Assembly: GCF_000963695.1 (NCBI RefSeq)
Contig: NZ_LAJX01000102.1
Coordinates: 1-33,278 of the forward strand
Origin: Methylocucumis oryzae
GTDB taxonomy: Bacteria; Pseudomonadota; Gammaproteobacteria; Methylococcales; Methylomonadaceae
DNA: 33,278 nucleotides
Reading direction: 5' to 3'
Below, one piece after another: positions 362 through 32,982 of the stretch. The notes beneath the pieces were generated by a model that was given only the letters and a program-made list of their open reading frames with translations, ran no database searches and was not told the DNA's origin. Every line of letters starts with the position of its first letter. The stretch's first letter is position 1. The translations under genes and the position numbers were made by a program.

Positions 362-2623
362 TTATTGATTGACTGTGTTGCCTGTTGCCACTGTAAAAAA
401 CGCTTGTTCGTCAATTTTATTTTGCTTAAGCCAGGAAAAAGGTAAACAGGCTGGACCTACGGAATTAGAGCTAAAAGCATTGGCTAAATTTTGAGTGGCA
501 CCGAAAGCGACCCCTTGCGGATATTGGCTTAAATTTTCAATTAATATGGGGGAAGTCCCGTAAACGGATAAACGCGTTGTTTCGGCAAAAACCTGTAAGG
601 TGTTAAACCGATAACTGCGAAGGTATACGGCATCCGCACTAGGTGTTATCGACCAACTGCTAGTGGCTGTTATCGGTGCGTTTAGTGCTAAGTTGTATTG
701 TTTTCCAGCAAAAATTGACACTAACCGTTGTGAAGCTTGCGGCTGATTTAAAAAAGGTGCGTCAGCCGCAGGCAAATTGAACAGGTACTTGCCATTACCA
801 TAGACATTAAAACCTGAAGTTCCGGTCTTAACCAGGTATTGTTTTGGGGCATGTGGATCGATGGCTTGGCTATTGTCTATTGTCCAAAAGGCTGTGTCCA
901 TTATCGAAGGCGTATTACCAAGATCGAGTCCGGCGGCATGAAACGCAGGACTCAAATTAGCGATACCGGTTGCTGTTAAATATTGCTGATCATCGCTAGG
1001 TAGAAAGAATAAGACTACACCCAAATCGAGAGCCACTACCGCATGGGTTAGTAGCGTTCCAGAAAAAGTTGCTTTGCTGAAATCAACGCCTTCAAGATGC
1101 GCCCTGGCAAACGAAATCGCCCGCCCGCTTCCCCCAGGTCCAACCATGCATCCGGTAAATTTTCCCTGTAATAATAGGCAATCACTGAAATCCGCTCCCG
1201 AAACATTGGCTTGGGTAAAATCGTTTGAGGTCAGAACTGAACCGGTCAAAACCGCATCTTGTAAATCGGCATGATTGAGCGTCGCAGGCGCCGCATACCA
1301 CTTAACGTTACGCAAATCAGCACCGGCAAGACTGGCTGTTGGCGCTGTAACCCCGACTAATGAGGCACCATTAAGCACTGCTGGAATTAAGCTTGGATTA
1401 TCGTTAAATACCTCAATCCCGTTGTCACTCAGGAATAATTTGTAAGGGCCACTAGGGTCGAGAATTAACCAGCTTTGGCCTTTAATGACAACGACGACCA
1501 CGGATGCCGGTTGAAGGGTAATGCCATTATTTTTAAAAGCGGCGATTAAATCAGTCTGTGGATAAGCATCGTTATCTAATTCGTTAGCAAACTGTGTATT
1601 TAATTGAGGGTCGAGAAAAAACAAAAAGCTGCTCGCGCCCATTTTTACCCGAGTTAAATCCGAATGATCAAAGACAGCATTACAAAAAATCCCCATTTGT
1701 GCCGAAGCATCGGTTAACGTCACTCCGCGTAAAAATGCTCCAAGCGCAACCACGCCATTTAAGTTCGCGGTGGTCAAATCGGCGGTATCGAGGACGGTAG
1801 AAATCAATGTGGCACCGGCCAAGTTTGCGCCTTGTAGATTGAGATTGGTCAACACAGCTCTAGTGAAATCGGCTGATGTAGCTTTTGCCCCGCTGCAATC
1901 TAGCTTATAAGTTTGACCACCGAGTTGACAACCTGCCGCATTTGAACCAGACAAATCAATTTGCCGTGCCGATGCTGGTTTACCCCAATTCAAACCGCGT
2001 AAATCGGTCTGGCTCATATTCGCGTTATCCAACGTCGCATTGCTGAAATTGGCACCTGCTAGCTGTGCCCCGGTAAAGTTGGCGTTACTAAAATCTATGC
2101 CTTGGGATAAATCTTGGCCGATGAGAATCACGTTGGAAAAATCGGCATTCACCGCTTGTTTGGCTTGCCTGACGGTTGCTAGCGAAACCGTTTCTACAGT
2201 CGGCGCAAAGGTTGCGTAATGGTCGGTGCCGTCGGTTACTCCCAGAACATTAGGCGTTTCTGGATTGGTCGGCGACAAGTAATAAAGCGCTTGGTCACCG
2301 TTGGCTGTTTTAACGCTGATCTGGCTACCCAATGGGTTTCCAGACAATAAAAATGCCGCCGCATTGGCAACGTCATCGGTGAATTCGATAAAGACACCGG
2401 TTTCATTTAAGCTTAGCCAGCGCAGATCGCCCGATTGTATGCGGTAAGTGCCATCGGGGAAAAGATACACCATATACTTTTCCGTCGCGGTCACGGACAA
2501 GGCATTCATGCCGGGAATATACAACCAGCCGTGATGCCCGTCACTGATGCGGTTGGTGGTTAGATATAAATTTTGAATGCCTTCAACGGCAGAACAAAAA
2601 CGCCATTTTGCCTGCGAATACAC
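362..2623 (-). CDS. Pentapeptide-repeat protein with inserted W-D-Y-V modules
   Basis: A 753-residue protein with runs of pentapeptide repeats of the A-(D/N)-(L/F)-x-x type at about residues 160-215, 245-330, 420-500 and 505-535 (for example ADFSN, ANFTG, ANLAG, ADLRN). Such repeats form a right-handed quadrilateral beta helix. Two inserts interrupt the helix near residues 345-395 and 540-595. Each runs from a hydrophobic FFL start to a W-x-I-x-D then Y...G-x-x-V-(F/Y) ending, and they resemble each other and segments of the 1304-residue protein upstream. No signal peptide or membrane span is evident. The start is GTG at 2623, because an in-frame stop lies just upstream and the nearby ATG (about 2642) is in another frame that stops quickly. 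It follows the TULIP A stop by 23 bases, so it is probably co-transcribed. Function unknown; the helix suggests a binding or scaffold role. Confidence 0.85.
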   Translation of the reverse strand: MYSQAKWRFCSAVEGIQNLYLTTNRISDGHHGWLYIPGMNALSVTATEKYMVYLFPDGTYRIQSGDLRWLSLNETGVFIEFTDDVANAAAFLLSGNPLGSQISVKTANGDQALYYLSPTNPETPNVLGVTDGTDHYATFAPTVETVSLATVRQAKQAVNADFSNVILIGQDLSQGIDFSNANFTGAQLAGANFSNATLDNANMSQTDLRGLNWGKPASARQIDLSGSNAAGCQLGGQTYKLDCSGAKATSADFTRAVLTNLNLQGANLAGATLISTVLDTADLTTANLNGVVALGAFLRGVTLTDASAQMGIFCNAVFDHSDLTRVKMGASSFLFFLDPQLNTQFANELDNDAYPQTDLIAAFKNNGITLQPASVVVVVIKGQSWLILDPSGPYKLFLSDNGIEVFNDNPSLIPAVLNGASLVGVTAPTASLAGADLRNVKWYAAPATLNHADLQDAVLTGSVLTSNDFTQANVSGADFSDCLLLQGKFTGCMVGPGGSGRAISFARAHLEGVDFSKATFSGTLLTHAVVALDLGVVLFFLPSDDQQYLTATGIANLSPAFHAAGLDLGNTPSIMDTAFWTIDNSQAIDPHAPKQYLVKTGTSGFNVYGNGKYLFNLPAADAPFLNQPQASQRLVSIFAGKQYNLALNAPITATSSWSITPSADAVYLRSYRFNTLQVFAETTRLSVYGTSPILIENLSQYPQGVAFGATQNLANAFSSNSVGPACLPFSWLKQNKIDEQAFFTVATGNTVNQ

Positions 2624-2646: not shown

Positions 2647-4313
2647 TTAATGGGTAACAAGGTTAGATTTATAGACGACATCAGCCAGAATGCTGACATA
2701 GCCGGTTTGGATGCTCAGCTCGGCATTGCCAAAATCGAATTGGAAATCCTGCATGATGGGTAATGGCACCCCGGTTTTGCCTAAGTCCGCCAAATTCTGG
2801 GCATATAAACCTTCGGCAATCACCCAAACAATGGCTTCGAAAATAGGGCCGTTAAATCCAGGAATGCTACTGCTATCGTAAGTGATGGTATTTTCGGCAT
2901 TAGCAAAACCAAATTGCAAGGTCTGCGTATTATTCGATGAAATTCCCAACGCCAGATCAGTCAAAACATCCGTCCGTTTTACGCTGAATGTTATGTTTGG
3001 CTGGGGATTAGCGCTATTTTGAATGGTCAGCGTATAACTGATATCTTGCGTTGACGCCATCGCAGCTATTTTGGCCGCTGTTTCTATGGTTGAAAAATAC
3101 TGGGTTGGAACAGTTGCCGACGTCAAAAACGCTTCAACGGCAGCTTGCGTTAAATAAGCATTGCCAGCAATCGCCTGTAGCAATTGGTAAACATCGGCAG
3201 GCAACTGGCTTTGTAAAAGCGTCATCACGGCCGCGTTGAATAAATAAACAGTTTGGAATGAGGTGGTTGGTGCGGCGTTTTGCGTGATTTGCGCATACAT
3301 GACAAAGGCAGCATAGGGCTGAAGCGCGGTTCATAAGTGGTATAACTCGATACCTTCAACAATTGCGCATCGGGCAAATCTTCCGGTTTAATCAACAAAT
3401 TCAGCTTTCCAGCTTCAAAATAAACCCAGTTCAAGGCATCCACTTCGTAATTTGAAACATACATATTCAAATGATGCGAGGTATCGGAATCGGCAGGAGG
3501 AATGGGCAAGGGTAGCGAGGGCGGGTTAGCGCCAGAGAAAGCGGTGCCGTTATAGCTAGCCCCACCTTTTACGCCCATTTGAATGCCATCATTATTGGGA
3601 AACAGCAAACCTGAATCGCCAAGCGAAAAATCATAAACCATACCGTCACCTAAATTGCCCGATGCAGGAATACTGGCTAGGTTTCCGGTAATCAGAGTAT
3701 TCAGTGATGAGCTGAAATCAATCGCCGACAACGCAGACGCTGTTGCATCAGACGCATGGGAAGAAAAACATTCTTGGTTTTCTTCTTGGATAATACTGTC
3801 ACTGGGAATATTGGCACTACTGCTTACGGCATTACCGGTTGTCGTACCGGCGACGATGCTCCAGGTCTGACTTTGATTATCGTATTCAAATTGCAGTGGA
3901 ACATTGACGGTCAGTGATGAAAAGCTAGGCGTATAAGTAAATTTATTATCTTTATTGACTGGGTTATCGCAAATAACGCCTACGCCAGCGATAAAAGTGC
4001 AATGGGTATAACTATAGGTTTCTTCCCACGCATATTGGGCGTTGAAATTGACCGCTTGCATCACCAGCGGAAAATTACCGCCACTATTTTGGGTGACACT
4101 TTCAAATGCGGGCGTGAAGTTGACTAACGTTCCGTTGGTCAGATTAATAACGATGTTATCAGCCGTGCTGTAAAGAATATCGATACGACCGATATTTATC
4201 GTTTTATTGGGCGGCCTCAGTTGGGATAACAGGTTAACCAGTTCTTTAGCAACCAATTGCTGTGCGAAAAAATTAATACCGGTTTTGCCGATGGCGATCG
4301 TAATGGCTTGCAT
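2647..4313 (-). CDS. BPI/LBP/CETP-like TULIP protein A (one frameshift)
   Basis: Rebuilt length about 555 residues, as in a complete two-lobe BPI. As I recall human BPI, matches lie in order: an N-terminal strand-helix with GKTGINFF then a charged amphipathic helix and PP; a beta segment NFNAQYAW; a lone Cys (ECFSS) before a helix; a proline-rich linker; the interdomain motif SNYEVDALNWVYFEAGKL (BPI: SDYFFNTAGLVYQEAG); and the C-terminus GVPLPI...ILADVVYK (BPI: GFPLPT...FGADVVYK). Family members bind phospholipid or LPS acyl chains in apolar pockets. There is no signal peptide, so the export route is unclear. Frame is lost near 3314-3320, where a G run on the plus strand lacks one base compared with paralogue B; the C-terminal lobe continues as the frame ending at 2647. 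The ATG at 4313 has an AAGGA site and follows B by 15 bases. The BPI assignment is by eye. Confidence 0.75.
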
Positions 4314-4328
4314 AAGTAATCCTTGTAA

Positions 4329-6019
4329 TTAGCTGTTTTTATAAACCACATTGGCTAAAATGCTGACATAGCCCGTTTGTACGCTAAGTTCGGCATTGCT
4401 GAAATCGAATTGGAAATTCTGCATAATAGGTAGAGGGACGCCGGTTGCGCCTAAATCCACTAAGTTTTGTGCGTAAAGACCTTCAGCGATTACCCAGACG
4501 ATTGCCTCAAAAATTTCACCGTTAAAGCCTGGAATCGTACTGCTTTGGTAAGTAACCGTACTACCTGCATTGGCGAAGCGAATTGCAAGGTCTGGGTATT
4601 ATTTAACGAAATGCCCAGGCCCAAATTAGTTAATACATCTACGCGTTTAACGCTAAAGGTTATATTTGGTTGGGGATTGGCGTTATTTTGAATCGTTAGC
4701 GTATAACTAATGTCTTGGGTTAAGACCATTGCCGATGTTTTTCCGGCATTTTCTATCGTTGTGAAGTATTGATTCGGAACAGTCGCTTGGGTTAAAAAAG
4801 CTTCCAGACTGGTTTGCGACAAATACGCATTGCTTGGCAGCGCTTCGATCAATGTGTAAACAGTTGCTGGAAGTTGCTGTTGCAAAAGAGTCATTGCACT
4901 TTTGGAATAAACGTACGCCGTCTGAAACGACGTCACTGGAGCGATGTTTTGCGTCAATTGAGCATTCATAACAAATGCTGAGTACGGGGTTAAGCTCGGT
5001 TCAAACGTTGTGTAACTGGATACCAGCAGCAGTTTTGGGTCCGGCAAATCCTGAGGGGTTATCAGCAGGTTCAATTTTCCAGCTTTGTAATAAGCCCAGT
5101 TTAGAGCGTCCACTTCGTAATTCGAGACATACATAGACAAATGATGGGTATCGGAATCGGTGGGCGGTACGGGTAACGGTAACGACGGTGGGGTAGGGCC
5201 GGAAAATGCAGTGCCGTTATAGCTCGCGCCGCCTTTCACACCCATTTGAATCCCATCATTATTGGGAAATACTAGGCCAGAATCTCCAAGCGAAAAGTCA
5301 TAAACCATACCATCACCTAAATTTCCCGAACCGGGAATCGTTTTAATGATTCCGCTGAGCAAACTGTTCAGTGGCGTAGCAAAATCGATAGCACTAATCG
5401 CTTGCGCGGTGGCGTCATCGACATGTGTTCCGGCACAACTAGCATCTTGTCCGTTCAGAATACTCGAACCAGGGATATTCGCAGTTAAATTAGCAGTTTG
5501 GGCAGACGTTTTATAGGTTGTGATCTCCCAGGCATTATTGCTGCTATCAAATAAAAATTGCACGATTACCATCGCCGTTAATTGACCAAAGCCAGGGCTA
5601 TAAGATAGAGGCGTGGAAGTATTTCCGTCAGTATGCTGTACGACAGGCCCATTCGGTCCGGTATAAGTGTCATATTCGTCCCAATGATAATTTTCCTGCC
5701 AATCATACTTAGCTGAAAAATTACCCGCAGCGAAAGTCAGCGTAAAAATCGGTGTTTTAGCCGAATCATCAGCAACACCTTGGGTGACAGTTTTGAAAGT
5801 AGGGGAAAAACCAATCAAACTGCCATTTGATAAGACTATTGAGATAGCGCTGTAGTCGATTTCCACTTGATAGCTGGGATAGGTTTTGAAATTTGCAACC
5901 TGAATGGTTCTATTGGGCGGGGCTAACTTTCCAAGTAGAGTGACTAACGTACCCACTAAATAGTTTTGGGTAAAGAACTGAATTCCGGTTTTGCCAATGG
6001 CGATGGTAATGCCCTGCAT
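4329..6019 (-). CDS. BPI/LBP/CETP-like TULIP protein B (one frameshift)
   Basis: Paralogue of TULIP A, about 563 residues when rebuilt, with near-identical blocks (GDGMVYDFSLGDSGL, NNDGIQMGVKGGASYNGTAF, SYTLTIQN). It shows the same order of BPI-like landmarks: GKTGIQFF N-terminus, NFSAKYDWQENY strand, single Cys before the lobe-closing helix, proline-rich linker, SNYEVDALNWAYYKAGKL, and an ILANVVYK C-terminus. One base is missing near 4577 compared with paralogue A, so the raw frame ends at 4490 in unrelated residues, while the homologous tail continues to the TAA at 4329. The site is a short G/C run and could be a sequencing error or a genuine lesion. No signal peptide. An AGGTG motif precedes the ATG at 6019. 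The tandem copies imply duplication within the locus; a third copy has left a trace at 6123-6158. Confidence 0.75.
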
Positions 6020-6066
6020 GTGTTCACCTAACAGTTGAAAAGTTTATGTTATTGCTGTTGTTTTTT

Positions 6067-6118
6067 GGCTACCCACTTAAGTAGGGACAGGGCATTGTCC
6101 TGCCTAAAGTGCATAGCC
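6067..6118. repeat. Short copy of palindromic repeat family 2
   Basis: The sequence starts ggctacccacttaagtaggg and ends with the imperfect reverse complement (ctaaagtgcatagcc). The arm matches the terminal arms of the 135-base elements at 16598-16732 and 19397-19531. It looks like an internally deleted copy keeping only the ends, and could fold into a hairpin between two genes. Confidence 0.6.
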
Positions 6119-6122
6119 TTGT

Positions 6123-6158
6123 TTTTATAGAGCACGTTGGTCAAAGCTGACATAGCCT
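6123..6158 (-). pseudogene. 3' scar of a third TULIP gene
   Basis: Read on the minus strand, this stretch matches the last codons of TULIP B and A: twelve identical bases encoding GYVS, a two-base gap, then about 21 of 26 identical bases that would encode a tail like LTNVLYKN (B: LANVVYKN). It lies between the stop of the 1304-residue protein and the start of TULIP B. This is what a third tandem copy would leave after deletion. Homology rests on about 38 aligned bases, so chance is unlikely but not excluded. Confidence 0.55.
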
Positions 6159-6162
6159 TAAA

Positions 6163-6185
6163 GCCGTCATCTCAGCGATGACGGC
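6163..6185 (-). terminator. Perfect 8-bp hairpin after the large propeller gene
   Basis: Inverted repeat gccgtcat (6163-6170) and atgacggc (6178-6185) with a 7-base loop, 11 bases past the stop at 6197. On the minus strand only three Ts follow the stem, so it would be a weak terminator or a processing/attenuation point, lowering expression of the TULIP genes relative to the first gene. Confidence 0.4.
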
Positions 6186-6196
6186 ATTGTTTTAGG

Positions 6197-9100
6197 TTAT
6201 GCTGGAATTGAATACACTTGCAGGGCGTCGCCGCTACGGTAAACGTGATATATCGTTACGCCGTCTTTTACATCCCAGAAGCCATCAGGATTAATCACTT
6301 CAATAAACGCTTGATTGCTTAAAGAAATGTGATGATCGGCAAAGTCAGCTTTAATAGCGCTGATGTTCTGTGAATTAAAATTGGGTTGCTCGCTCAATGG
6401 GAAACTGAATAAAGGCGGAGTGGGTGTCCAATGCGCTAAACCCGGTTGCAAGCCTCCGTTAGCGCCTTTCAGTGTTTCGTAGGTTAGCGCATATAAGTCA
6501 CGCCAAATGTCAACGGTAAGCCGTCCAGCGACGATATTTTGTGGCTGGGTAGTAATCGCCGAATCCGGTGAGCGGAACAAGAAAGTGCCATCCGGGTTGT
6601 ACACGTCGAGTAGATAATCCGATGCTGAGCCCCCGTCATTGGTATATGACAGGATATATAGATAGCCTTGCGCCTCGACGGCCATATCCAAGTAATTGAG
6701 GTCTGCGCCGTTCGGCCCGGCTTGGAGTGGGAAATAAGTCAAACAATCAAACACTTCAACTAATTTTGGATTACCGCTTGACACTGTTAATAGCCAGGCC
6801 AAACCCAGTAGATTATCGCTCAACAGCCAGCGTTCTCCAGGCTGCTGCACTTTTATTGAAACCGATAGTGGGCGCTGGTACACATTTAACAGGCCATCTT
6901 GGTATAAAATCTGCCATGCCAGCTTGCGTGGATCGGTGATAATCCAAGAGGAACCGGGTTGCACGACTTCAATTTGCGAACTAACCGACGGATCGTTAAG
7001 CGCGTCAGGGTCATACGATGGATTGATGTTTAACAAAGCCAATGCCGCCAGCAAAGGGTCTTTGCTGTTAGGCTGAAATTTTCCACTATCTAGTTCGGCA
7101 ATATAGCTCGCATTAGTAAGGGGCGCGATGAAATTTTGTCCGGCTACAATCAGGCCGTCGGTAAACTGTAGCGGTACTTGACCGGCATCCAACATAGGGG
7201 CGACATCTGCCGTGTTGACGGTATAAACCCAAGGGTATGGCGTAAAACTTGGAACCGCGTTACCCAAAATGTCAAAAGCTTGCACGCGATTGTTTAAACT
7301 TTCTAAAATCAGAATCCTGCCATCTGGTGCTACAGCCAAGGCTTTTGGACCTTTCATCAAACCTTCGCGCACACCTTCGCCAGAGACTAATAACGCTTCT
7401 GGCGCTTGGCCGTCAGGTGATGGCGCAGCAGGTAGATTCAAAATCATCAGTTTGTGCTTACTAAACGAACAAGCAAGCACTGCGTTATTGGGATGAATTG
7501 CCATAGAGTCTAAATTGTCTAGCGGAAACGAACCCCAACTCAGCAAATTAGGCTTACCCAAGCCAAAATCGCTTTCGCCGTCTAACACGACTTGCCGTAA
7601 ATTTAACGAACCGTTACGCGGGTCGAGAATAAAATTGTTTTGGTCTATGGTGTTATCGGTATTCAGCGACGGTGCGTACGCGATGCCTGGCTTTTGAGTC
7701 AAACCAATAGTGCTGCTAATTAAACGTGAACCGGGATCGGCTAAGACCGAAAGGTTTTGCAGGCCGTAAAGTTGCTGATCGGAAATCGGCGCGTCCGGTG
7801 AATCCGGATGCAAATGCTGATTCGCTGCCCGCCAAATATAACCCACTTGGAAGGCACTGTTATTGACGGTAATTGCGGTCAATTCACACAATCCACCGGT
7901 GGCGGCGCAATTTAGTGAAGTCAGATTAGTGCTCGGTGGTTCACCGTTAGCAACCCAGGAAAAATCGGAGTTGGCGTACTGAATTTTTTCTTTATACACA
8001 TACTGGGTATCAATGCCTAGCGGTACCAGATTTTCCGTGACACTTTTATCACCAAGATTAAGCGTCGTGCCTTGATTCGGCACGGCTGGCGTCCAGTTAT
8101 TTTGCCAAGAGCTTGCTAACCAGCCATTGGCGCTGTACAAACCGATAAAAATACGGAAATTACCACCTGCAGGCACATTCTCAAATAACAAAGGGATGGG
8201 GGTTCCGCTGGTAGTCGCTGGCATTGTTCCTTTTAACTCAAAGTTGGTCCCCCCTTGAACTTGTAAGGTCGCAACATAATACGCAGCCACCGAAGACCAA
8301 ACGGCGGTTTCAGGATGTCCGGCTTCACCATGACGTGGATCTGGGTGCAAAGTTAAAGAAACATCAATCGCGCGTTTGATTTCTGCAGTAACCAACGAAT
8401 CAGACGACAACACTTCACCGGTGGTGATAGCGATTAATTCGAAATCCAAGGCCACAGCAGCCAATTTAAATAACCAACCAACCGGGCCGAATGCGTTGGA
8501 TAATTCACCTTCACCGACTTGTTCTAGCAACCACTCGCCTAGTTTTTCCATGCCTTTTTTGACAACGAAACTAATCACGACATTGCCGAATTGCAGCATG
8601 GTTTCTTTCCAATTGGTCAATGCCGCTTTGGTCGCTACGCCACCGGCAACCAGAAATGAAAGTACGGCAACTGCGGCCAGTCTTAATTCTTTATCGTTAA
8701 CGATTTTATTGAACGTTTGCGTGCTGGTGATTATTTTTCCGGCAATCATGAATATAATGGGTATACCATACTGCCAAGCTCCGGTTAACAATGCACCTCG
8801 GTCACTGACGTTTAAGTCATCCCAACTGACTTTATCCCAGTTGGAAACGCCTAGACTACCAAAATAAATTTTAATCGCCGAAGCCGTACCGATATTAAAA
8901 CGCTCTGTCGTCGGGAACACAGGAATGGGAATGCCCATAATCGTATCGACGGCTGACAGCCCGTCTATGCTTTGGCGTGGACCAAGCGAATGGCCCTGGT
9001 CATCGAATAATTCAAAAGCGACGTAAAATGTACGGCTATAAACATTGTACGCATCAATGGAAAAATTATTTTTAGGATCAATCTTTAGCGAGTCTTTATC

Positions 9101-10111
9101 GAGTTTTATTCCGGATGTATACGTTTGATAAGGCACCGTCCATTTAAATTCAGTGTCTTCGACTAAGCGTTCAACATTTAATGCTGTATTTTTAGTGTTA
9201 GATTTTTTGAGAACGCTGGTGCCAGGAGCAGGACTCCATAACTGATTCTGCAGTTGCAAATCGTCGCTAGAGGTGCGTTTTGCACCAACAATCGGAACGG
9301 CTGATGCGCTAAGAACATTGCCTGTAATATCAAAGGTCTGTAGTTTTTGCCCTTGCTTAAATTCACCCAAATCGTAATCTGCTGTAATCGGATTGCCATT
9401 TTTGTCCTTACAATCAATGACGGGCGACCAGCTCGGCGTATTGGTCATTGCGTCATTCAATACTTGCATGGCATTGTATTGATCCGGATTCACCTTAGGA
9501 TCAGGCAAAATATGAGCATCACGAATATAAGCTGCCGTGACGGGTTGCACTGTCGCTAAATCAGGATGGTGGGCAATCAAGCCTGCGGCCGTCGTTTGGG
9601 TGTCGACTAAATACTGTGCAGCCACCATTTTGTCTATGGCTTTTTCTTCATCGGTTGCTTGGGTTTCAATACCTAGCCAATAAAGCCTGCCATTGGTATG
9701 CGAATTAATAGCGGGCTGATTCGCTTTCATGCCTTGAGGCGCATGACGTCCATGTTGGCGTGATAAACGCTGTTTCCACATGTCCGACCGGTAAAAATTT
9801 CTCAAAATTACCGGTGGGATAATATGGCTCATTAACACCACTTCATTCAAATGCGAGCCTGCTTGTTTAGGTCTGACGACTTTAACCCATTTCGGTGCAT
9901 TGCTGTCAAAATGCTCGTCCGGAATCTCAACAAAATGGGTGTAGCTCTTAGCTTTCTCGGGTGACAAGTCGGCAAATACCGGATTAGTAGTTTTCGATGC
10001 CGCTAGAGATTCATCGGTATGCACAGACAAATCAAAGATAGTTCCGTGAACAAGAACTTGCAAACACTCAGAATCATGCAGATGACCCAACGCAAAATGA
10101 AAATATGACAT
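6197..10111 (-). CDS. Large (1304 aa) protein with C-terminal NHL/propeller-like half
   Basis: I recognise no family for the N-terminal half. Residues about 440-570 hold three hydrophobic stretches (GIPIIFMIAGKI; AAVAVLSFLVAGGVATKAAL; LFKLAAVALDFELIAITTG) that could span or insert into a membrane. From about 850 to 1190 the protein shows propeller-like repeats, such as ALAVAPDGRILILESLNNRV near 920-945 and a DVYNPDGTF repeat near 1170, typical of NHL/SMP-30-like blades. W-x-I-x-D...VY modules occur near 1056 (SSWIITDP), 1091 (ERWLLSD) and at the extreme C-terminus near 1280 (GFWDVKDG), matching inserts in the pentapeptide-repeat protein. No signal peptide is obvious. The frame is intact over 3.9 kb, in contrast with its neighbours. 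It is the first gene of the minus-strand cluster; the ATG at 10111 has a weak AGG upstream. Confidence 0.8.
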   Translation of the reverse strand: MSYFHFALGHLHDSECLQVLVHGTIFDLSVHTDESLAASKTTNPVFADLSPEKAKSYTHFVEIPDEHFDSNAPKWVKVVRPKQAGSHLNEVVLMSHIIPPVILRNFYRSDMWKQRLSRQHGRHAPQGMKANQPAINSHTNGRLYWLGIETQATDEEKAIDKMVAAQYLVDTQTTAAGLIAHHPDLATVQPVTAAYIRDAHILPDPKVNPDQYNAMQVLNDAMTNTPSWSPVIDCKDKNGNPITADYDLGEFKQGQKLQTFDITGNVLSASAVPIVGAKRTSSDDLQLQNQLWSPAPGTSVLKKSNTKNTALNVERLVEDTEFKWTVPYQTYTSGIKLDKDSLKIDPKNNFSIDAYNVYSRTFYVAFELFDDQGHSLGPRQSIDGLSAVDTIMGIPIPVFPTTERFNIGTASAIKIYFGSLGVSNWDKVSWDDLNVSDRGALLTGAWQYGIPIIFMIAGKIITSTQTFNKIVNDKELRLAAVAVLSFLVAGGVATKAALTNWKETMLQFGNVVISFVVKKGMEKLGEWLLEQVGEGELSNAFGPVGWLFKLAAVALDFELIAITTGEVLSSDSLVTAEIKRAIDVSLTLHPDPRHGEAGHPETAVWSSVAAYYVATLQVQGGTNFELKGTMPATTSGTPIPLLFENVPAGGNFRIFIGLYSANGWLASSWQNNWTPAVPNQGTTLNLGDKSVTENLVPLGIDTQYVYKEKIQYANSDFSWVANGEPPSTNLTSLNCAATGGLCELTAITVNNSAFQVGYIWRAANQHLHPDSPDAPISDQQLYGLQNLSVLADPGSRLISSTIGLTQKPGIAYAPSLNTDNTIDQNNFILDPRNGSLNLRQVVLDGESDFGLGKPNLLSWGSFPLDNLDSMAIHPNNAVLACSFSKHKLMILNLPAAPSPDGQAPEALLVSGEGVREGLMKGPKALAVAPDGRILILESLNNRVQAFDILGNAVPSFTPYPWVYTVNTADVAPMLDAGQVPLQFTDGLIVAGQNFIAPLTNASYIAELDSGKFQPNSKDPLLAALALLNINPSYDPDALNDPSVSSQIEVVQPGSSWIITDPRKLAWQILYQDGLLNVYQRPLSVSIKVQQPGERWLLSDNLLGLAWLLTVSSGNPKLVEVFDCLTYFPLQAGPNGADLNYLDMAVEAQGYLYILSYTNDGGSASDYLLDVYNPDGTFLFRSPDSAITTQPQNIVAGRLTVDIWRDLYALTYETLKGANGGLQPGLAHWTPTPPLFSFPLSEQPNFNSQNISAIKADFADHHISLSNQAFIEVINPDGFWDVKDGVTIYHVYRSGDALQVYSIPA

Positions 10112-14701: not shown

Positions 14702-16573
<1,872 letters not shown>

Positions 16574-18100: not shown

Positions 18101-18215
18101 GTAGGGTACGCTGTGCGTACCATTAAAAAATCGTAATAAAATCAATAAAAAGGTAAGCGTAGCGTACCCTACAGCGAGCTGTAAAAACCGAAAACTTAAC
18201 CATTTTAAAGTATAT
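18067..18215. mobile_element. MITE-like repeat family 1, copy 2 (inverted relative to copy 1)
   Basis: A 149-base element with ends gtatactctgaacg and agtatat. Its reverse complement matches 10676-10822 along its full length, including gtagggtacgc...gcgtaccctac arms and an AT-rich centre. It overlaps the 3' end of the LAB_N gene and supplies its stop codon; its right end reaches the start codon of the next gene at 18214. Confidence 0.8.
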
Positions 18216-19385
18216 GTCTAGTGCTAATCATTCAGAACGTTTAACCGCCATAGATTGCTTACGTGGCTTAGTCATGATTTTGATGACGTTAGACCATACC
18301 CGCGATTTTTTTACCAATGCGCATTTTTCCCCGACGGATTTATCCCAAACTAGCCCGGCATTGTTTTTAACGCGTTGGATTACGCATTATTGTGCGCCAA
18401 CCTTTGTATTCTTAGCGGGTGTCAGTGCGTTCTTAGCTGCCGGGAAGTTTGCACGAGTCAGCGAACTTAGCCGGTTTTTATTGTTGCGCGGTGTATTATT
18501 AATCGTGTTGCAAAGTACCGTTGAGGCGGTGGCATGGGAGTTTACTGGGGATTTGCGTGAAATCAACGGTGGCGTGTTGTGGGCGATAGGCTGGTCTATG
18601 ATTTTTTTAGCCGGTCTGGTGTATTTGCCTATGCGTTGGCTTGTCGCCATTGGTTGGTGATGGTGTTAGGTCATAACGCTTTCGATACGGTTACTAGCGA
18701 TGATTTTGGTCATGTTGCTTGGCTATGGGCAATTTTACATACGGGCAATAAGATAGATCTGGGTGGCGCTTGGAGCTTAAGGCCTTATTATCCATTGATT
18801 CCGTGGCTAGGTGTGATGGCGTTAGGTTATGGTTTTGGCGCAGTGTTATCGCGTTTCCCAGCGCAGCGGTCTAGTTATGTGTTGGGATTAGGCGGCGTTT
18901 TGATCGTGTTGTTTTTGCTGCTGCGCGGGTTTAATAGCTATGGCGACCCTAAGCCGTGGCAGGTTCTACCGAATCCCGTGTTTACCGTGTTATCGTTTCT
19001 AAATTGTCATAAATATCCGCCGTCACTGGCATATTTATTGATGACCTTAGGGCCAGCGTTGGTTTTATTAGGTTTATTTGACCGTATTAAACCTAAAACC
19101 TTGCCTATCTTACCCATCTTTGGCCGTACGGCCTTGTTTTATTATTTACTGCATTTGTATGTGATACATGGCTTGGCTGTTATCGTCGCAGTATTAACCG
19201 ATGGGCCTGTAATACCGTTATTACTCGGCCCGTGGTCAAAAGAGATGCCAGAGCATTATGGCTATGATTTACCCGTGGTATACGGAATTTGGCTAGCGGT
19301 GTTGGCGCTGTTGTATCCGTTATGCGTATGGTTTGACCAGTTTAAGCGCAGTCACAGTCATTGGGCTTGGTTGAAGTTTTTTTAG
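18214..19385 (+). CDS. DUF1624 (heparan-alpha-glucosaminide N-acetyltransferase-like) membrane protein, one frameshift
   Basis: The rebuilt protein has about 390 residues and roughly ten membrane spans. The N-terminus RLTAIDCLRGLVMILMTLDH, followed by TRDFF, is the signature of the DUF1624/HGSNAT-like family of membrane acyltransferases, and the end has FGRTALFYYLLHLYVIHGLA, also typical. Bacterial members are presumed to acetylate envelope sugars, but this is not established. Frame is lost near 18651-18656, where one T is missing: one frame stops at 18660 and the rest of the protein continues in the next frame to 19385. The loss sits in a short T run, consistent with a sequencing indel. ATG 18214 overlaps the end of the upstream repeat, so the promoter and leader are repeat-derived. 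Confidence 0.85.
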
Positions 19386-26126: not shown

Positions 26127-27008
26127 TCAGCGTCTTGCGACATCAACAGACACACTTAACGAATGCTGACCACCACCATAAGCAATACCTTTAAGTGGCG
26201 TAACATCGGCAAAATCACGTCCCCAGCCTAACGTGATATATTGGTCATTCGGTATTTTATTATTGGTGGGGTCAAAATCTTGCCAGCCGATAGTCGGTAT
26301 GTAGACGGCAAGCCAAGCATGTGAGGCATCTGCACCGACGAGCCTAGGCGTGCCAGGTGCAGGTATGGTTTCTAAGTAGCCTGAGATATAGCGTGCGGCT
26401 AACCCTAAGCTGCGTAGGCAGGCTATCGCTAAATGGGCAAAGTCCTGACATACCCCGCGCTTATGCTCTAACACGGTAGCTAACGGCGTGGCTATTGTCG
26501 TGAAAGAGGGGTCATAAGTGAAATCATGGTAAATGCGTTGGGTTAAATCGCAAGTAGCTTGAAATAACGATTGGTCTTTAGTAAACGAGGCCTCTGCATA
26601 AGCCACTAAATCATCTGAAGCGGTGACCATTGCTGAATCCAATAAGAATTGTTTGGCTTCTAATAGCTCGGGTGTTAATAGTGCGTGGCTATCTGAGCTT
26701 AGTAGTTCGCGTGCCGCTTCCCACGTTATCGCAGCATTGCTTGGCATAGGCATCGCTGTGACACAGACATCGCTGATAGCGGTAACAGTGAGTTCTTTAT
26801 GCGCTTGCTGAATGGCAAAATAAGCGGTGCGATTACCAAAGTAATCGTCAAATTCTTGAAAATCACTCGGTGTAGGCGTGATAACAAACCTGGTATTTAA
26901 ACAACGCTGGTGCGCTAAATTGCGCGGCTGTAGACGAGCTTGATTTTGACATAATCCGACGGCTTGGCTGTAGTGATAAGTCGTTGTGTGGGTAATCCTG
27001 TAGTTCAT
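26127..27008 (-). CDS. Transglutaminase-like protein of the Anbu cluster
   Basis: An intact 293-residue protein. The N-terminal 100 residues form the bacterial transglutaminase-like beta domain (MNYRITHTTTYHYSQAVGLC). The papain-like core carries the triad as Cys in RGVCQDFAHLA (near 180), His in ADASHAWLAVYIP (near 235) and Asp in WQDFDPTNN (near 250). Family members may act as amidases or peptidases, or form isopeptide bonds. The ATG overlaps the stop of the upstream ATP-grasp/alpha-E gene (ATGA), so the two are coupled; Anbu starts 113 bases downstream. Confidence 0.92.
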   Translation of the reverse strand: MNYRITHTTTYHYSQAVGLCQNQARLQPRNLAHQRCLNTRFVITPTPSDFQEFDDYFGNRTAYFAIQQAHKELTVTAISDVCVTAMPMPSNAAITWEAARELLSSDSHALLTPELLEAKQFLLDSAMVTASDDLVAYAEASFTKDQSLFQATCDLTQRIYHDFTYDPSFTTIATPLATVLEHKRGVCQDFAHLAIACLRSLGLAARYISGYLETIPAPGTPRLVGADASHAWLAVYIPTIGWQDFDPTNNKIPNDQYITLGWGRDFADVTPLKGIAYGGGQHSLSVSVDVARR

Positions 27009-29563
27009 AGCTCATCATCTAAGCGTTGTACATGGGTTAAATCGGTTGTTTGCGAGTGGCTGAAATAGGCTTGTGCAATCACATCGGCAAGTTGCCATAT
27101 CAATTCTCTGCTATCGGATAATAATTTATCGAGTTGCAAATAACAGGCCTCTTCATCGCTAGCAGCGAGTAATGTAGTTAAATTGCTTAACTTCACATCG
27201 GTGTATAGCTTCATGACCAATTGTTCTTCTTCGCTTAGCCTACTTTTGCGTTCTCTAGGCAGCTCTGCAATATGCGCTGAAAGTTGTTGCAGTTGATAAG
27301 CAAGTGAGCGTGGATGCGCGGCGTCAAATAATAATAAATCCAATACCATAGGGAGTTGTACCGGGCAGCGATAGCGGCGCTGGTAAATCGTTAAGCTATG
27401 GGTGGAATATAACACCGCTTCTAAAATTTGGCTTTGTACCGCGCTTTCTTGTTTGCAAACCAGCGCACCGCGCAGTAACGTGATGAGTGCTAGCGCGCGT
27501 TCCAGTTTACGGCCACTGTCAAGCATTAGCCAACCGGCTTCTCGGGTCATGCTTTCACTGGTGAAGCCGGTAAAGGCGACAATGCCGGTAATTAATTCAT
27601 CTAAGCAGCTTAGCAAATGTTCTAGCGCCATATCGTTATTAATGACGCGTTGTTGCCAGCGGTGTTGAATATTATCTATTGTGCGCCAGGTATCTTGCGA
27701 CCATAAATCACGCACACTAAATGCAGTCTGCACAAAACGCTTGTATATTAGCGGCGAGAGAACCGGGTTTTAAACTGTCTTTGGCTAGAGAAAGCAACTC
27801 AGTTTGTGGTGTGTTTAGTAGTGCATTGTCGGCGCGACAAAGCCTGGATAACTGGTAGTAACGTGCGTTAAGCTGGCTAATAAAACGCTTAATGACGATT
27901 GTTCGGTAGGGTCATTAAATTCTAATAGCGAGCGCATTTTAAGTAAGACCGTGCGCAGCAAACGAGCGGATGCTTCAATGCGTTCGATATAACGTCCTAC
28001 CCAGAACAAATGGTCGGCCGCACGGCTAGTAAGGGCTTCGCTAACGGCTTCAACGACTAACGTGCGCGTGGGTGGTGTATTGCTGACCGAGGTTTCCTGC
28101 GTGGCAGGGGCTAAAATCCAGGTATCCTTGCTAAGACCACCTGATTGGTTGGAGACTGAGAAAGGATTTTGGCCTGAAGCGACTCGGGTCAGGCCGCCCG
28201 ACATGACGATATAATCGTTGCCGTGTGCAACGACAAACTGGCGTAACACTGCTTGGCAAGGCTCGATTTTATGGTCTATGAAGGCCGGTACGGATGCTAA
28301 GTGCATTTGTTCTTGCCCGACGAACAAATAAGGCTTGGCAATAATTTCTGCGCGTAAACGCTGTTGCTGCTCACCCGATAATTCATTGCCAAAAATCGCG
28401 CTATTACCTGGGTTACGATTAATGTGTTTGATGATTAATCGGTCTAAGTTGTTTAAGACAAAGTCGCGTTCTTTAGCATGGCCACACCACCAGGTGGCAA
28501 TAGAGGGGAGTAATAAGTCTTCGCCGAGGAAATAACGGGCTAATTGCGGTAAAAAAGCCAGTAAGCCGGGATTTTCTAAAATACTAGAGCCTAATGGATT
28601 GGCTATCGCAACATTGCCGCGCCGTACTGCTTCCATCAGTCCGGCGACGCCTAAGCGGGAATCACTGCGTAACTCTAAAGGGTCGCAATACACATCATCG
28701 ACGCGCCGTAAAATGACATCGACATGTTGTAAGCCTGCCAACGTTTTTAACCAGACATGGCCATCACGCACGGTTAAATCGTCGCCTTGGACTAAGGTAT
28801 AACCTAAATAAGCGGCTAAATAGGCGTGCTCAAAATAGGTTTCGTTAAATGGGCCAGGTGTAAGAATGACGATACGCGGATTATCTTTGTTTTGTGGTGA
28901 TAATCCGGCTAAGCCTTTGTGCAAGCCTTTAAAAAAATTAGCCAGTCTATGGACTTTATTGGCTTGAAAAATATCGGGTAATACGCGTGTTAACACCATA
29001 CGGTTTTCTAGCGCATAACCTGAGCCTGATGGGGCTTGGCTTCTATCGTCTAAAACGAATAACTGACCGCTGCTGCTGCGAACTAAGTTAGCAGAATAAA
29101 TAACTAGCGACTTATTATGCTTAGGGTTGGCTCCCACACAACCGGGCAAAAAACCTTGATGACCGTAGATTAATTCAGGTGGCAACAAGCCTTGTTTTAA
29201 CAAGTTTTGTGAGCCGTAGATGTCTTTTAGGATTAAATTTAGTAATTCAGCACGCTGTTGCAATCCTGCAGCTAAACGTAAACCGTCATCATGGCTAATC
29301 AGCAGTGGTATCGGGTCTAAACGCCAAGGCCGCGCCATTTTTTGCGTATCACCATAGACATTATAGGTCACGCCGTTTTCGCGTAATAAACGTTGCGCTT
29401 CTTTGCGACGCTTATCCAGCTCAGTAATGCCTAGTGTGTTTAATTGCGACCAATACGACAGCTCTTTCGCATCGTGTACGGCGGTTGCGTCGTCGTACAC
29501 GCCTAGTTGCGTTGGGAAATATTGGCCGCTATCAGTTTGTGCAAAGGGATTTATAACGCTCAC
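27005..29563 (-). CDS. Circularly permuted ATP-grasp fused to alpha-E domain (two frameshifts)
   Basis: Rebuilt length about 852 residues. Residues 1-500 are the circularly permuted ATP-grasp (COG2308): RPWRLDPIPLLISHDD, LLPPELIYGHQGFLPGC, TPGPFNETYFEHAYLA, DVILRRVDDVYCDPLELR and LLLPSIATWWCG are in the expected order. The C-terminal 320 residues are an alpha-E helical domain (COG2307) beginning SRAADHLFWVGRYIERIEAS. ATP-grasp members of this type are predicted to form peptide-like amide bonds. Two opposing shifts, one base missing near 27830 and one extra in A4 at 27733-27736, split the alpha-E part; repair gives a continuous domain. Start GTG 29563 with AGG 8 bases upstream, and 17 bases after the previous gene. 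Confidence 0.88.
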
Positions 29564-29580
29564 GCGATAACCTGTTACCG

Positions 29581-32500
29581 TTAACGATGTTGATAACGTA
29601 AGTCTAATGTAAATGGAAAATCATTGTTGAGTTCTTCCAGCGGCGGAGCCATCGGTCTTGGCGCATCGGTATGTATTCTAAAGCGTTGTTCTAGCGCTTG
29701 GTCGGCGACGGCTTCGGTTGTGGTTTGTGCCATAGGTGCTTTTATGATTGCCCCCGGTGTATGACCGTAATCCCAGAATCGGCTAATACGTCTGGCTTCG
29801 GCCTCAAAGCTGTTAACCGGGAAGCGCTCATAACTACGACCACCCGGATGGGCAACATGATAAGTACATCCTCCCACCGCATGACCGTTCCAAGTATCTA
29901 TCACGTCAAAAATTAATGGTACATGGGGGCTAATCGTTGGGTGTAACGCCGACGGTGGTTGCCAAGCCCGGTAACGCACACCGGCAACATATTCGCCGAT
30001 ACGGTTCGTTGGTCGTAATGGCAGACGTCTACCGTTACAAGCAATGACATAGCGCCCAGCGGTAAAACCAGTGACTTTAACTTGTAAGCGCTCGACCGAT
30101 GAATCAACATAGCGAGCAGTACCGGTGCTAGTGACTTCTTCGCCTAAGACATGCCAAGGTTCTATAGCAAAACGTAGCTCTAATTCCATGTCATCAGTCA
30201 TCATGACGCCATATCTTGGGAAGCGGAATTCAAAAAATGGCTCTAGCCAGCTCAGCTCAAAGGGGTAGCCAGCTCGTTTTAAGTCATTGACCACGCTGAT
30301 TAAGTCTTGTCGTACATAATGCGGCAGCATAAAGCGGTCATGTAATTCTGTGCCCCAGCGTACTAAGTCGTGTTGATACGGTTTACGCCAAAACCATGCG
30401 ATTAACGCGCGTAATAACACCGTTTGGACGAGTGACATACGCGCATGAGGCGGCATTTCAAAGGCTCTCAGCTCTAAAATACCTAAACGACCTGTTGAGC
30501 TATCGGGTGAATACAGTTTATCTATGCAAAATTCAGCTCTATGGGTATTACCGGTAATATCGGTTAACAAATGCCGTAGCAAGCGGTCAACTAGCCAAGG
30601 TGCAGGTACTTCACCGGCTGGCATTTGTTGGAAGGCGATTTCTAACTCGTATAATTTTTCATCCCGACCCTCATCGACTCTAGGTGCTTGACTGGTAGGG
30701 CCGATAAACATACCTGAGAATAAATACGATAAGCCTGGATGATGTTGCCAGTAAGTAATTAAGCTGCGTAATAAATCAGGCCGTCTTAACAGCGGGCTAT
30801 CGGCTGGCGATTCTGCACCTATGGTGATGTGATTGCCGCCGCCCGTTCCGGTATGGCGACCGTCGAGCATAAATTTTTCTGTGCCTAAGCGCGATAAATA
30901 GGCGTTTTGATACAGTATTTCAGTTTTTTCAACTAATTCTGGCCAGTTTTTAGAGGGGTGAATATTGACCTCGATAACGCCGGGGTCTGGTGTAACCATT
31001 AGGCGTTCGACGCGGTAATCTCTAGGGGGCTCATAACCTTCGATGACTACAGGTAACGCTAGTTTTTCTGCAACGATTTCAATGGTTGCGATTAAGTCTA
31101 AATAATGTTCCAGCGTAGACAGCGGCGGCATGAATAAATACAAGCGACCATTGCGCGGCTCTATACAAATCGCGGTATGCGGTACATCGACGTAGCGGCT
31201 AGGTACATCGCCAGGCTCTTGCTCATTTAAGTCGGATGTAGCGGTTTTTTCTTCAAACGTGCTGTAACGCTGCATGACTTCGCCAAAATAGTCGGCCAAT
31301 TTCGGCAAGTCTTTGAATAAGCTTTGCGGTTCTTGCGGGTCACGTCGTTCAGGCGCTACCCAAGGCAAGCTGCTTAACGGCATACGCATACCGATAGGTG
31401 AGTTACCGGGTATTAAAAACATTGCGCCTCGTCTAAATTCCCAAGGGCCGCTTTGCCAAACATGGTTATACCAATTCCATTTTAACGGTAAGGTAAAACC
31501 TACCGGCATACCCAAATCTTGGTCTAATACTTGCGCAAGCGTTCTGCGTTCTAGCGGGTCTTTTTAAATTGGCTTTAAGTGGATTCAGGTTAGTCGGTAA
31601 TGTGCCTTCTTGCCATAAGTAGTAAAAGCTGTCTTCGTAGGCCGGTGTGATATGGCTTTCCGTGACGCCTAAATAGCGAGTCAGTTCTTGAGTAAACGCC
31701 AACGCATCTTTAATGTCATGACCATAATCGGTATTGATGTCGGCTAATAGCTCAGGATTTCGCCATATCGGGGTATGGTCTTTACGCCAAAAAATGCCGT
31801 ATTGCCAGCGTGGTAAGGGTTCACCGGGATACCATTTGCCTTGCCCGTAATGCAATAATGCGCCTTTAGCAAAAAACGTCGCGCAAACGTTTGGTCAATT
31901 CTTGTGCGCGCTCGCGTTTGTGCGCACCATCTGCGTGCGTATTCCATTGCGGACTCTCCATATCATCAATAGAGACGAAGGTAGGTTCGCCGCCCATCGT
32001 CAAATGAACGCGGTCTTGCTCGAATTGCCTGTCTATTTGTAAGCCCAGCTCGTTAATCGCGTACCATTGCTCATCGGTATAAGGTTTGGTGACGCGTGGG
32101 TCTTCAAATAAGCGTTCGACGGTATTGCTAAAGTCAAATTCGACTTCGCAAGGGTCTGTACAGCCGGTTACCGGTGCAGCGCTTGCAGGTGAAGGTGTAC
32201 AGGCTAATGGAATATGACCTTCGCCGGCTAAAAGACCCGAGGTCGGGTCTAAGCCTATCCAACCAGCCCCAGGAATATAGACTTCTGCCCAGGCATGTAA
32301 ATCGGTAAAATCTTGAGCTGGCCCTGATGGACCGTCTAATGATTTAATGTCGGCGGTTAATTGCACTAAATAACCGGAGACAAAGCGTGCCGCTAGGCCA
32401 AAATGCCGTAGGATTTGCACTAATAACCAGGCCGAATCACGACACGAGCCATTGGCTTTGGTCAATGTTTCTTCGCAGCTTTGAATACCAGGTTCCATCC

Positions 32501-32982
32501 GAATGTTATAGGCAACTGTTTGATAAACGGCGCGATTAACATCGACCATAAAGTCGTTGATATTACGTGGGCTTAAATCGAAGTTGGCTAGCCATTGCTT
32601 AAGTCGTTCACCTGATTCAGCGATTTCTAAATAAGGCACTAATTCTTTAGCCAGTGCGGCTTCATAGCTAAAAGGAAATTTTTCGGCGTAGCTTTCGACG
32701 AAAAAAATCAAATGGATTAATCGTCGTCATATCGGCAATGACTTCGACATCGACGCTTAATAAACGGGTTTTTTTCGGAAACACCACGCGCGCCAATATA
32801 TTGCCGAAGGGGTCTTGTTGCCAGTTAATAAAATGCTCTTCTGGCTCAATGCGTAGGCTATAACCTTTTATCGGTGTGCGGCTATGTACGGCAGGGCGCA
32901 ATCTAAACACATGCGGCGACAGCGCGACAGCTTTGTCGAAGTGGTAAATTGTTTTGTGCCGAATGGCTACTTTTATTGACAT
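29581..32982 (-). CDS. Transglutaminase-DUF2126 (putative amidoligase) fusion protein, three frameshifts
   Basis: The rebuilt protein has about 1132 residues. An N-terminal transglutaminase-like part (about 1-300) shows KVAIRHKTIYHFDKAV, Cys in NGSCRDSAWLLVQ, His in DLHAWAEVYIPG and Asp in GLDPTSG. The rest is DUF2126 (COG4196), predicted to be a COOH-NH2 ligase (amidoligase), with HLTMGGEPTFVSIDD, LPVVIEGYEPPRDYR, DGRHTGTGGGNHITIG and ILELRAFEMPPHARM. Shifts sit in A7 at 32701-32707, A6 at 31871-31876 and T5 at 31561-31565, each with one extra base; correcting all three gives one uninterrupted protein of normal family length. GAGG precedes ATG 32982. First gene seen of the Anbu cluster. Confidence 0.9.

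Follow-up and report, generated by a model that had tools for sequence, protein, structure and literature searches.

Tandem bacterial relatives of the LBP/BPI/CETP proteins within a conserved three-gene set

Does a bacterial genome encode genuine relatives of the two-lobed lipid-binding protein BPI, and with which partners might such proteins act? This question is raised by contig NZ_LAJX01000102.1 of Methylocucumis oryzae, analysed here over positions 1 to 33,278 (the window), in which the region 2647-6019 consists of two tandem minus-strand paralogues, B1 (4329-6019) and B2 (2647-4313). The original prediction had read them as two adjacent full-length-type BPI-like paralogues in a bacterium. 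This reading holds: both genes lie on the minus strand, and all four pieces into which their reading frames fall match the Pfam family PF02886 (LBP_BPI_CETP_C). What the original prediction missed is that the pair is flanked by conserved partners, which we call A and C. In the following, we consider the homology of B1 and B2, the state of their reading frames, the gene set in which they stand and the role that they may play.

Likeness of B1 and B2 to LBP, BPI and CETP

Each copy is mostly open in a single frame with the remainder in another, giving one visible frame change per copy. The main frame of B1 (4490-6019, minus strand, 509 aa) comprises a BPI/LBP-like N-lobe, the linker and most of the C-lobe, and, in the alignment, the final ~28 residues do not stay in register with the relatives; the C-terminal piece of B1 (4332-4598, minus strand) is an 89-aa open frame in a different frame. 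B2 is divided into an N-terminal frame (3225-4313, minus strand, 362 aa), the last ~30 residues of which are out of register with the relatives, and a C-terminal frame (2647-3300, minus strand, 217 aa). The four pieces match PF02886 with E values between 2.2e-5 and 8.3e-5; at E<=1, it is the only Pfam family that they match. The curated cut-off, 23 bits, is exceeded by two of them, namely the B1 main frame (24.4 bits, residues 277-355 on profile positions 19-97) and the B2 N-terminal frame (23.2 bits, profile 17-78); the two end pieces, each with a partial domain, lie just under it (B2, 22.6 bits, profile 171-238 of 238; B1, 22.7 bits, profile 170-238 of 238). Because the front pieces cover profile positions 17-97 and the end pieces 170-238, the order of the parts is collinear with the family.

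Intact relatives of 591-595 aa are present in Ancylobacter polymorphus, A. aquaticus and Jiella sonneratiae. The unbroken 594-aa protein of A. polymorphus DSM 2457 is 43-44% identical to the window pieces; the proteins of A. aquaticus DSM 101 and J. sonneratiae MQZ13P-4 are 85% and 61% identical to it, respectively. PF02886 scores 31.6 bits both for the A. polymorphus protein and for the Jiella frame, and it is matched by all members of a six-sequence alignment made of the three intact relatives and three window pieces (best E 6.7e-9). When the profile of this alignment was searched against the PDB, the only matches at E<=10 were LBP (4m4d, 1.3e-4) and BPI (1ewf and 1bp1, 0.0025 and 0.0027), with alignments that stay in register through the linker and into the beginning of the C-lobe. 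A single-sequence phmmer search with the intact A. polymorphus protein likewise returned LBP (9e-4), BPI (0.0042 and 0.0048) and nothing more at E<=10. At the level of sequence, the likeness of B1 and B2 to BPI is beyond chance.

The predicted structure points in the same direction for the N-lobe. In the AlphaFold2 model of the A. polymorphus protein, 20 of the 21 ten-residue blocks within residues 21-230 have a mean predicted local distance difference test score (pLDDT) of 59-90, with a mean of 52.5 and a predicted template-modelling score of 0.39 for the whole chain. A Foldseek search with this model gave seven matches at E<=1e-3, which are LBP, BPI, LBP, BPI, CETP and two mite group-7 allergen entries. 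Ranks 1-19 are otherwise filled by mite group-7 allergens, juvenile-hormone-binding protein, insect beta-carotene-binding protein and Takeout; the proteins beyond LBP, BPI and CETP in these ranks we take to be TULIPs as well. Unrelated folds appear from rank 20 onwards (E 0.016 and worse).

BPI in the strict sense, bactericidal and lipopolysaccharide-binding, has a strongly basic N-lobe, a disulphide joins the sheet and the helix of that lobe, and proteins of the LBP/BPI/CETP family carry a signal peptide. The B proteins are acidic: the isoelectric point is 4.33-5.25 in the intact relatives (4.62-6.17 for their N-lobes) and 4.05-4.89 in the window pieces. Judged from hydropathy, the five B N-termini have no leader-like start (best 19-residue value in the first 30 residues, 0.72-1.07), which would still be compatible with export by a leaderless route. 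A BPI-type disulphide is impossible in the B1 main frame, which has a single cysteine (residue 195). B2 and the relatives have three comparably placed cysteines, or four; those of B2 (105, 115 and 182) and, for example, those at 116, 126 and 193 in relatives might pair. Chiefly because of the acidity, and also because a leader-like start is absent, killing through lipopolysaccharide in the manner of human BPI is unlikely to be the role of B, and the lipopolysaccharide link drawn in the original prediction is not supported.

Frame changes and divergence in the two copies

The two copies have not diverged evenly. B2 is 55% identical to B1 across B1 residues 1-347 and 70% across residues 341-481; per 30-column block, identity reaches 83-97% at alignment columns 241-330, i.e. 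in the interlobe region and the start of the C-lobe, and is only 25-45% at columns 31-210. Over the stretch where the copies agree best, they share 78 of 89 residues, and for 35 of the shared ones the codons differ, which argues for selection on the protein. Within window positions 3225-6019, this alike stretch therefore looks constrained, and the N-lobe looks to be diverging.

The breaks in B1 and B2 are not peculiar to them. Four other conserved stretches of the window are likewise spread over two or more open reading frames, matching ThiC (14702-16157), HGSNAT_cat (18214-19385), Alpha-E (27005-29563) and transglutaminase/DUF2126 (29581-32982); the last run spans four such reading frames, the pieces of which may be one gene, and is counted once. 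The host genome is 88.6% complete and lies in 389 contigs. Since four unrelated stretches are also split, the breaks in B1 and B2 look like assembly or sequencing errors, the simplest cause. Programmed frameshifting was considered as well and rejected on the same ground.

The A-B-C gene set and its distribution

In all four loci found, i.e. the window and those of A. polymorphus, A. aquaticus and J. sonneratiae (L009, L010 and L011), the order A-B-C is kept on one strand. B is doubled in the window and single in the other three. The genes are separated by 12 and 6 bases in A. polymorphus and, in the window, by 177 (A-B1), 15 (B1-B2) and 23 (B2-C). The outside neighbours vary where examined: FTHFS lies upstream in A. 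polymorphus, and a GST-like protein, a P450 and a GlcD-like oxidase lie beyond A in the window. In Jiella, a 1943-aa open reading frame that might be taken for an A-B fusion was rejected as such, since over residues 1-1352 it reads through A in a wrong frame; A itself occupies 6057-9986 of that locus and B begins at 9998.

Gene A of the window (6197-10111, minus strand) encodes 1304 aa, 46% identical to A of A. polymorphus, with NHL-type blades at about residues 900-958 and an N-terminal part without an assigned fold. The profile of the A alignment finds NHL propellers in the PDB (best E 3e-12). All four complete A sequences contain hydrophobic stretches of 19 residues with a mean of at least 1.6; those near residues 475 and 544 are helical only in the low-confidence model of a relative. 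Gene C (362-2623, minus strand) encodes a pentapeptide-repeat protein of 753 aa (Pentapeptide, 123.9 bits), 36% identical to C of A. polymorphus, and C is ~760 aa long across the loci. A and C have in common a module of ~75 residues (hhalign E 1.1e-5, probability 82%), near 1000-1085 in A and at about 341-414 in C, with a W-x-I-x-D-like core and no Pfam match. A probable second copy at the C-terminus of A scores 1.3e-4 or better in the three relatives and weakly, 0.093, in the window; a possible further copy in the window C (617-687) scores 0.0045, and 0.35 or worse in the C of the relatives. These values are from the first search round, as later rounds are circular. Between B and A, nothing in common was found.

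The set is rare and scattered. The scan that found the relatives used exact matches to either of two strict peptide patterns and gave 266 stretches and three loci, the latter to be read as at least three, since distant members are missed. In genome samples that overlap with one another, PF02886 was found in none of 14 control genomes; of 369 genomes of the class it was found in the window genome only, and of 398 of the phylum in two (the window genome and A. polymorphus). With B1 as the query, the window genome alone matched among the 101 genomes around it; around A. polymorphus, 2 of 101 genomes matched in the B search, both in its genus, and among 385 genomes of its class and 219 of its order it was the only one. 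A. polymorphus and J. sonneratiae belong to two families of Alphaproteobacteria; the window genome belongs to the same phylum and a different class. Of 249 genomes of the phylum, nine had a match to A: the window genome, A. polymorphus, a distant homologue in genome G617 (E 1.8e-42) and six others in which the NHL-blade stretch alone was matched (E 3.3e-5 to 9.8e-4). Among 61 genomes in the neighbourhood of the window genome, it alone matched; of 110 around G617, five matched, none of them new. The G617 homologue (contig L023, 1-3279, minus strand) starts with what by eye resembles a twin-arginine translocation (Tat) or lipoprotein leader, and its contig ends inside A.

No sign of a mobile element or a known defence system was returned by the searches made. 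The A. polymorphus B protein matched no plasmid or phage record, none of 57 candidate stretches in viral contigs was confirmed, PHROG had no match for A and B (C lay outside that comparison), and PADLOC had none for A, B or C. The G+C content of the genes is 44-47% in the window (45% overall) and 64-67% in the other loci (flanks 67-68%); because the set is adapted to each host in this respect, a very recent capture is disfavoured. The window contig carries ordinary bacterial genes, and elsewhere in the genome, on another contig, lies a gene that matches the AMO family (ammonia/methane monooxygenase subunit A) with 428 bits; the host is probably a methane-oxidising gammaproteobacterium. Elsewhere in the window, genes for circularly permuted ATP-grasp, Alpha-E, DUF2126 and transglutaminase-like proteins stand in a row (26127-32982).

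Possible role and comparison with known systems

We propose that B1 and B2 are probably leaderless, two-lobed TULIP lipid carriers, homologous to LBP, BPI and CETP, that act together with A and C. A soluble B would take a hydrophobic ligand, perhaps a phospholipid or a neutral lipid, into its tubular lobes and pass it on at an assembly of A and C that touches a membrane, to which A may contribute a hydrophobic stretch and the NHL propeller, and C a pentapeptide solenoid. The homology, the order of the parts, the conserved set, the missing leader-like start and the acidity are observed here; that B binds lipid, what class of ligand it takes, its complex with A and C and its place in the cell are inferred. 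The tandem copies in the window would then be duplicated carriers, in which the N-lobes have diverged and the interlobe region has been conserved. A wider scenario can be put forward tentatively, as a possibility that we hold to be doubtful: that Proteobacteria acquired a eukaryotic LBP/BPI-type protein, or retained a bacterial ancestor of it, internalised it and built it into a hitherto undescribed A-B-C lipid-handling machine that moved as a unit between distant classes.

Several observations weigh against the lipid-carrier proposal. The original prediction had pointed to both Pfam domains of the family and to a fold of two TULIP barrels; the C family was matched, and the predicted N-lobe of the A. 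polymorphus relative found LBP, BPI and CETP as its best matches, but the N-domain model PF01273 was unmatched at E<=10, in a search whose HMMER filters discard most matches above about 0.1, in all five members of the six-sequence alignment that carry an N-lobe, and most of the C-lobe was modelled at pLDDT <50. The N-lobe assignment is accordingly based on the modelled fold and that of the C-lobe on sequence alone. The Foldseek alignments to LBP and BPI run over 618-633 columns with a template-modelling (TM) score of 0.20-0.25 of the query and a root-mean-square deviation near 22, so that the geometry of the whole is unsupported; such low scores are as expected, because the C-half is badly modelled. 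The B1 main frame alone, searched against the PDB with phmmer, picked up neither LBP nor BPI, only HmuY (E 0.82), and one member of the alignment has a weak match to AbfS_sensor (E 0.05). As for the partners, most of A has no relative among solved structures in the PDB profile search, its first 846 residues are poorly modelled by AlphaFold2 (mean pLDDT 43.8), and in G617 (71% complete, contig ending inside A) a homologue of A was detected and no B.

Other explanations of the locus fare worse in our judgement. The layout, a cluster of large proteins with leaderless TULIPs, resembles that of orfX-p47, and the leader-like start of the G617 homologue suggests that the A family can be exported; B, A and C might thus be secreted as an extracellular lipid-binding complex that aids another factor or binds other cells. 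We find this unlikely, as no P47-type Pfam match was found at E<=10 in the six aligned B sequences, the OrfX1-OrfX3 entry appears in Foldseek only at rank 40 (E 0.2), and no toxin family is among the Pfam matches of the 28 window open reading frames scanned, of 32 with at least 100 aa. The frame changes in both copies could also mean that B1 and B2 are decaying pseudogenes and that the A-B-C set no longer works in the window strain. This is quite improbable: ThiC, HGSNAT_cat, Alpha-E and transglutaminase/DUF2126 are split alike, which would point to assembly or sequencing errors, and in the most alike stretch of the two copies the protein has been kept while the codons differ. That a eukaryotic LBP/BPI gene was captured recently and serves to bind lipopolysaccharide or to damage the outer membrane of rival bacteria is highly improbable. 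It would suit the sequence-level likeness to LBP and BPI, the very patchy distribution and the cysteines of B2 and the three intact relatives, of which two lie in the N-lobe and one before the closing helix and could allow the BPI disulphide. Against it stand the acidity of the proteins, the lack of a leader-like start, the single cysteine of the B1 main frame, the missing PADLOC match for A, B and C, and the G+C content adapted to each host.

How do the putative B carriers compare with known systems? P47/OrfX proteins are also leaderless bacterial TULIPs in a gene cluster, but B differs from them in lacking a Pfam match to these families, in its weak fold match and in its partners. LBP/BPI/CETP proteins (LBP 4m4d, BPI 1ewf and 1bp1, CETP 2obd) resemble B in the collinear C-domain profile match, the best fold matches and the two-lobe length plan; B differs in being acidic, in its start without a leader, in the unmatched PF01273, in its bacterial partners A and C and, in B1, in having one cysteine in the N-terminal part. 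CETP/BPI family proteins are all described as extracellular in PMC5507252, where YceB is treated as a bacterial TULIP.

A BPI-like protein in a bacterium, which the original prediction found unexpected, has precedents. DUF4403 was described in 2019 as a full-length pseudodimeric bacterial homologue of BPI, the strongest link being that of its N-domain, found by HHsearch with a probability of 63% (PMC6791001), and human BPI was clustered in 2023 with the bacterial structure A0A2D5ZNG0 at a TM-score of 0.81 by human length (PMC10584675). B is thus not the first of its kind. DUF4403 has two TULIP domains within one bacterial protein, as B probably does, whereas B matches PF02886 directly, and the six aligned B sequences match no model of DUF4403, DUF1439/YceB or P47/OrfX at E<=10, only PF02886 and the weak AbfS_sensor (HMMER filters drop most matches above about 0.1). 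A0A2D5ZNG0 is likened to B, as a bacterial protein of BPI-like structure, by the published description only. What is new is a BPI relative within a conserved A-B-C set, in four of four loci; among the matches listed in the open-licence literature, at the level of titles and the starts of abstracts, no description of this set was found. The conserved A and C provide a genetic handle in Ancylobacter strains, by which a BPI-type function in a bacterium becomes directly testable. The bacterial TULIPs treated in PMC6791001, PMC5507252 and PMC10584675 are so diverged that the case for an ancestry shared with BPI is built on weak profile scores; bacterial proteins tied to LBP and BPI by ordinary Pfam and PDB searches would be a firmer bridge to the origin of the two-lobed lipid carriers.

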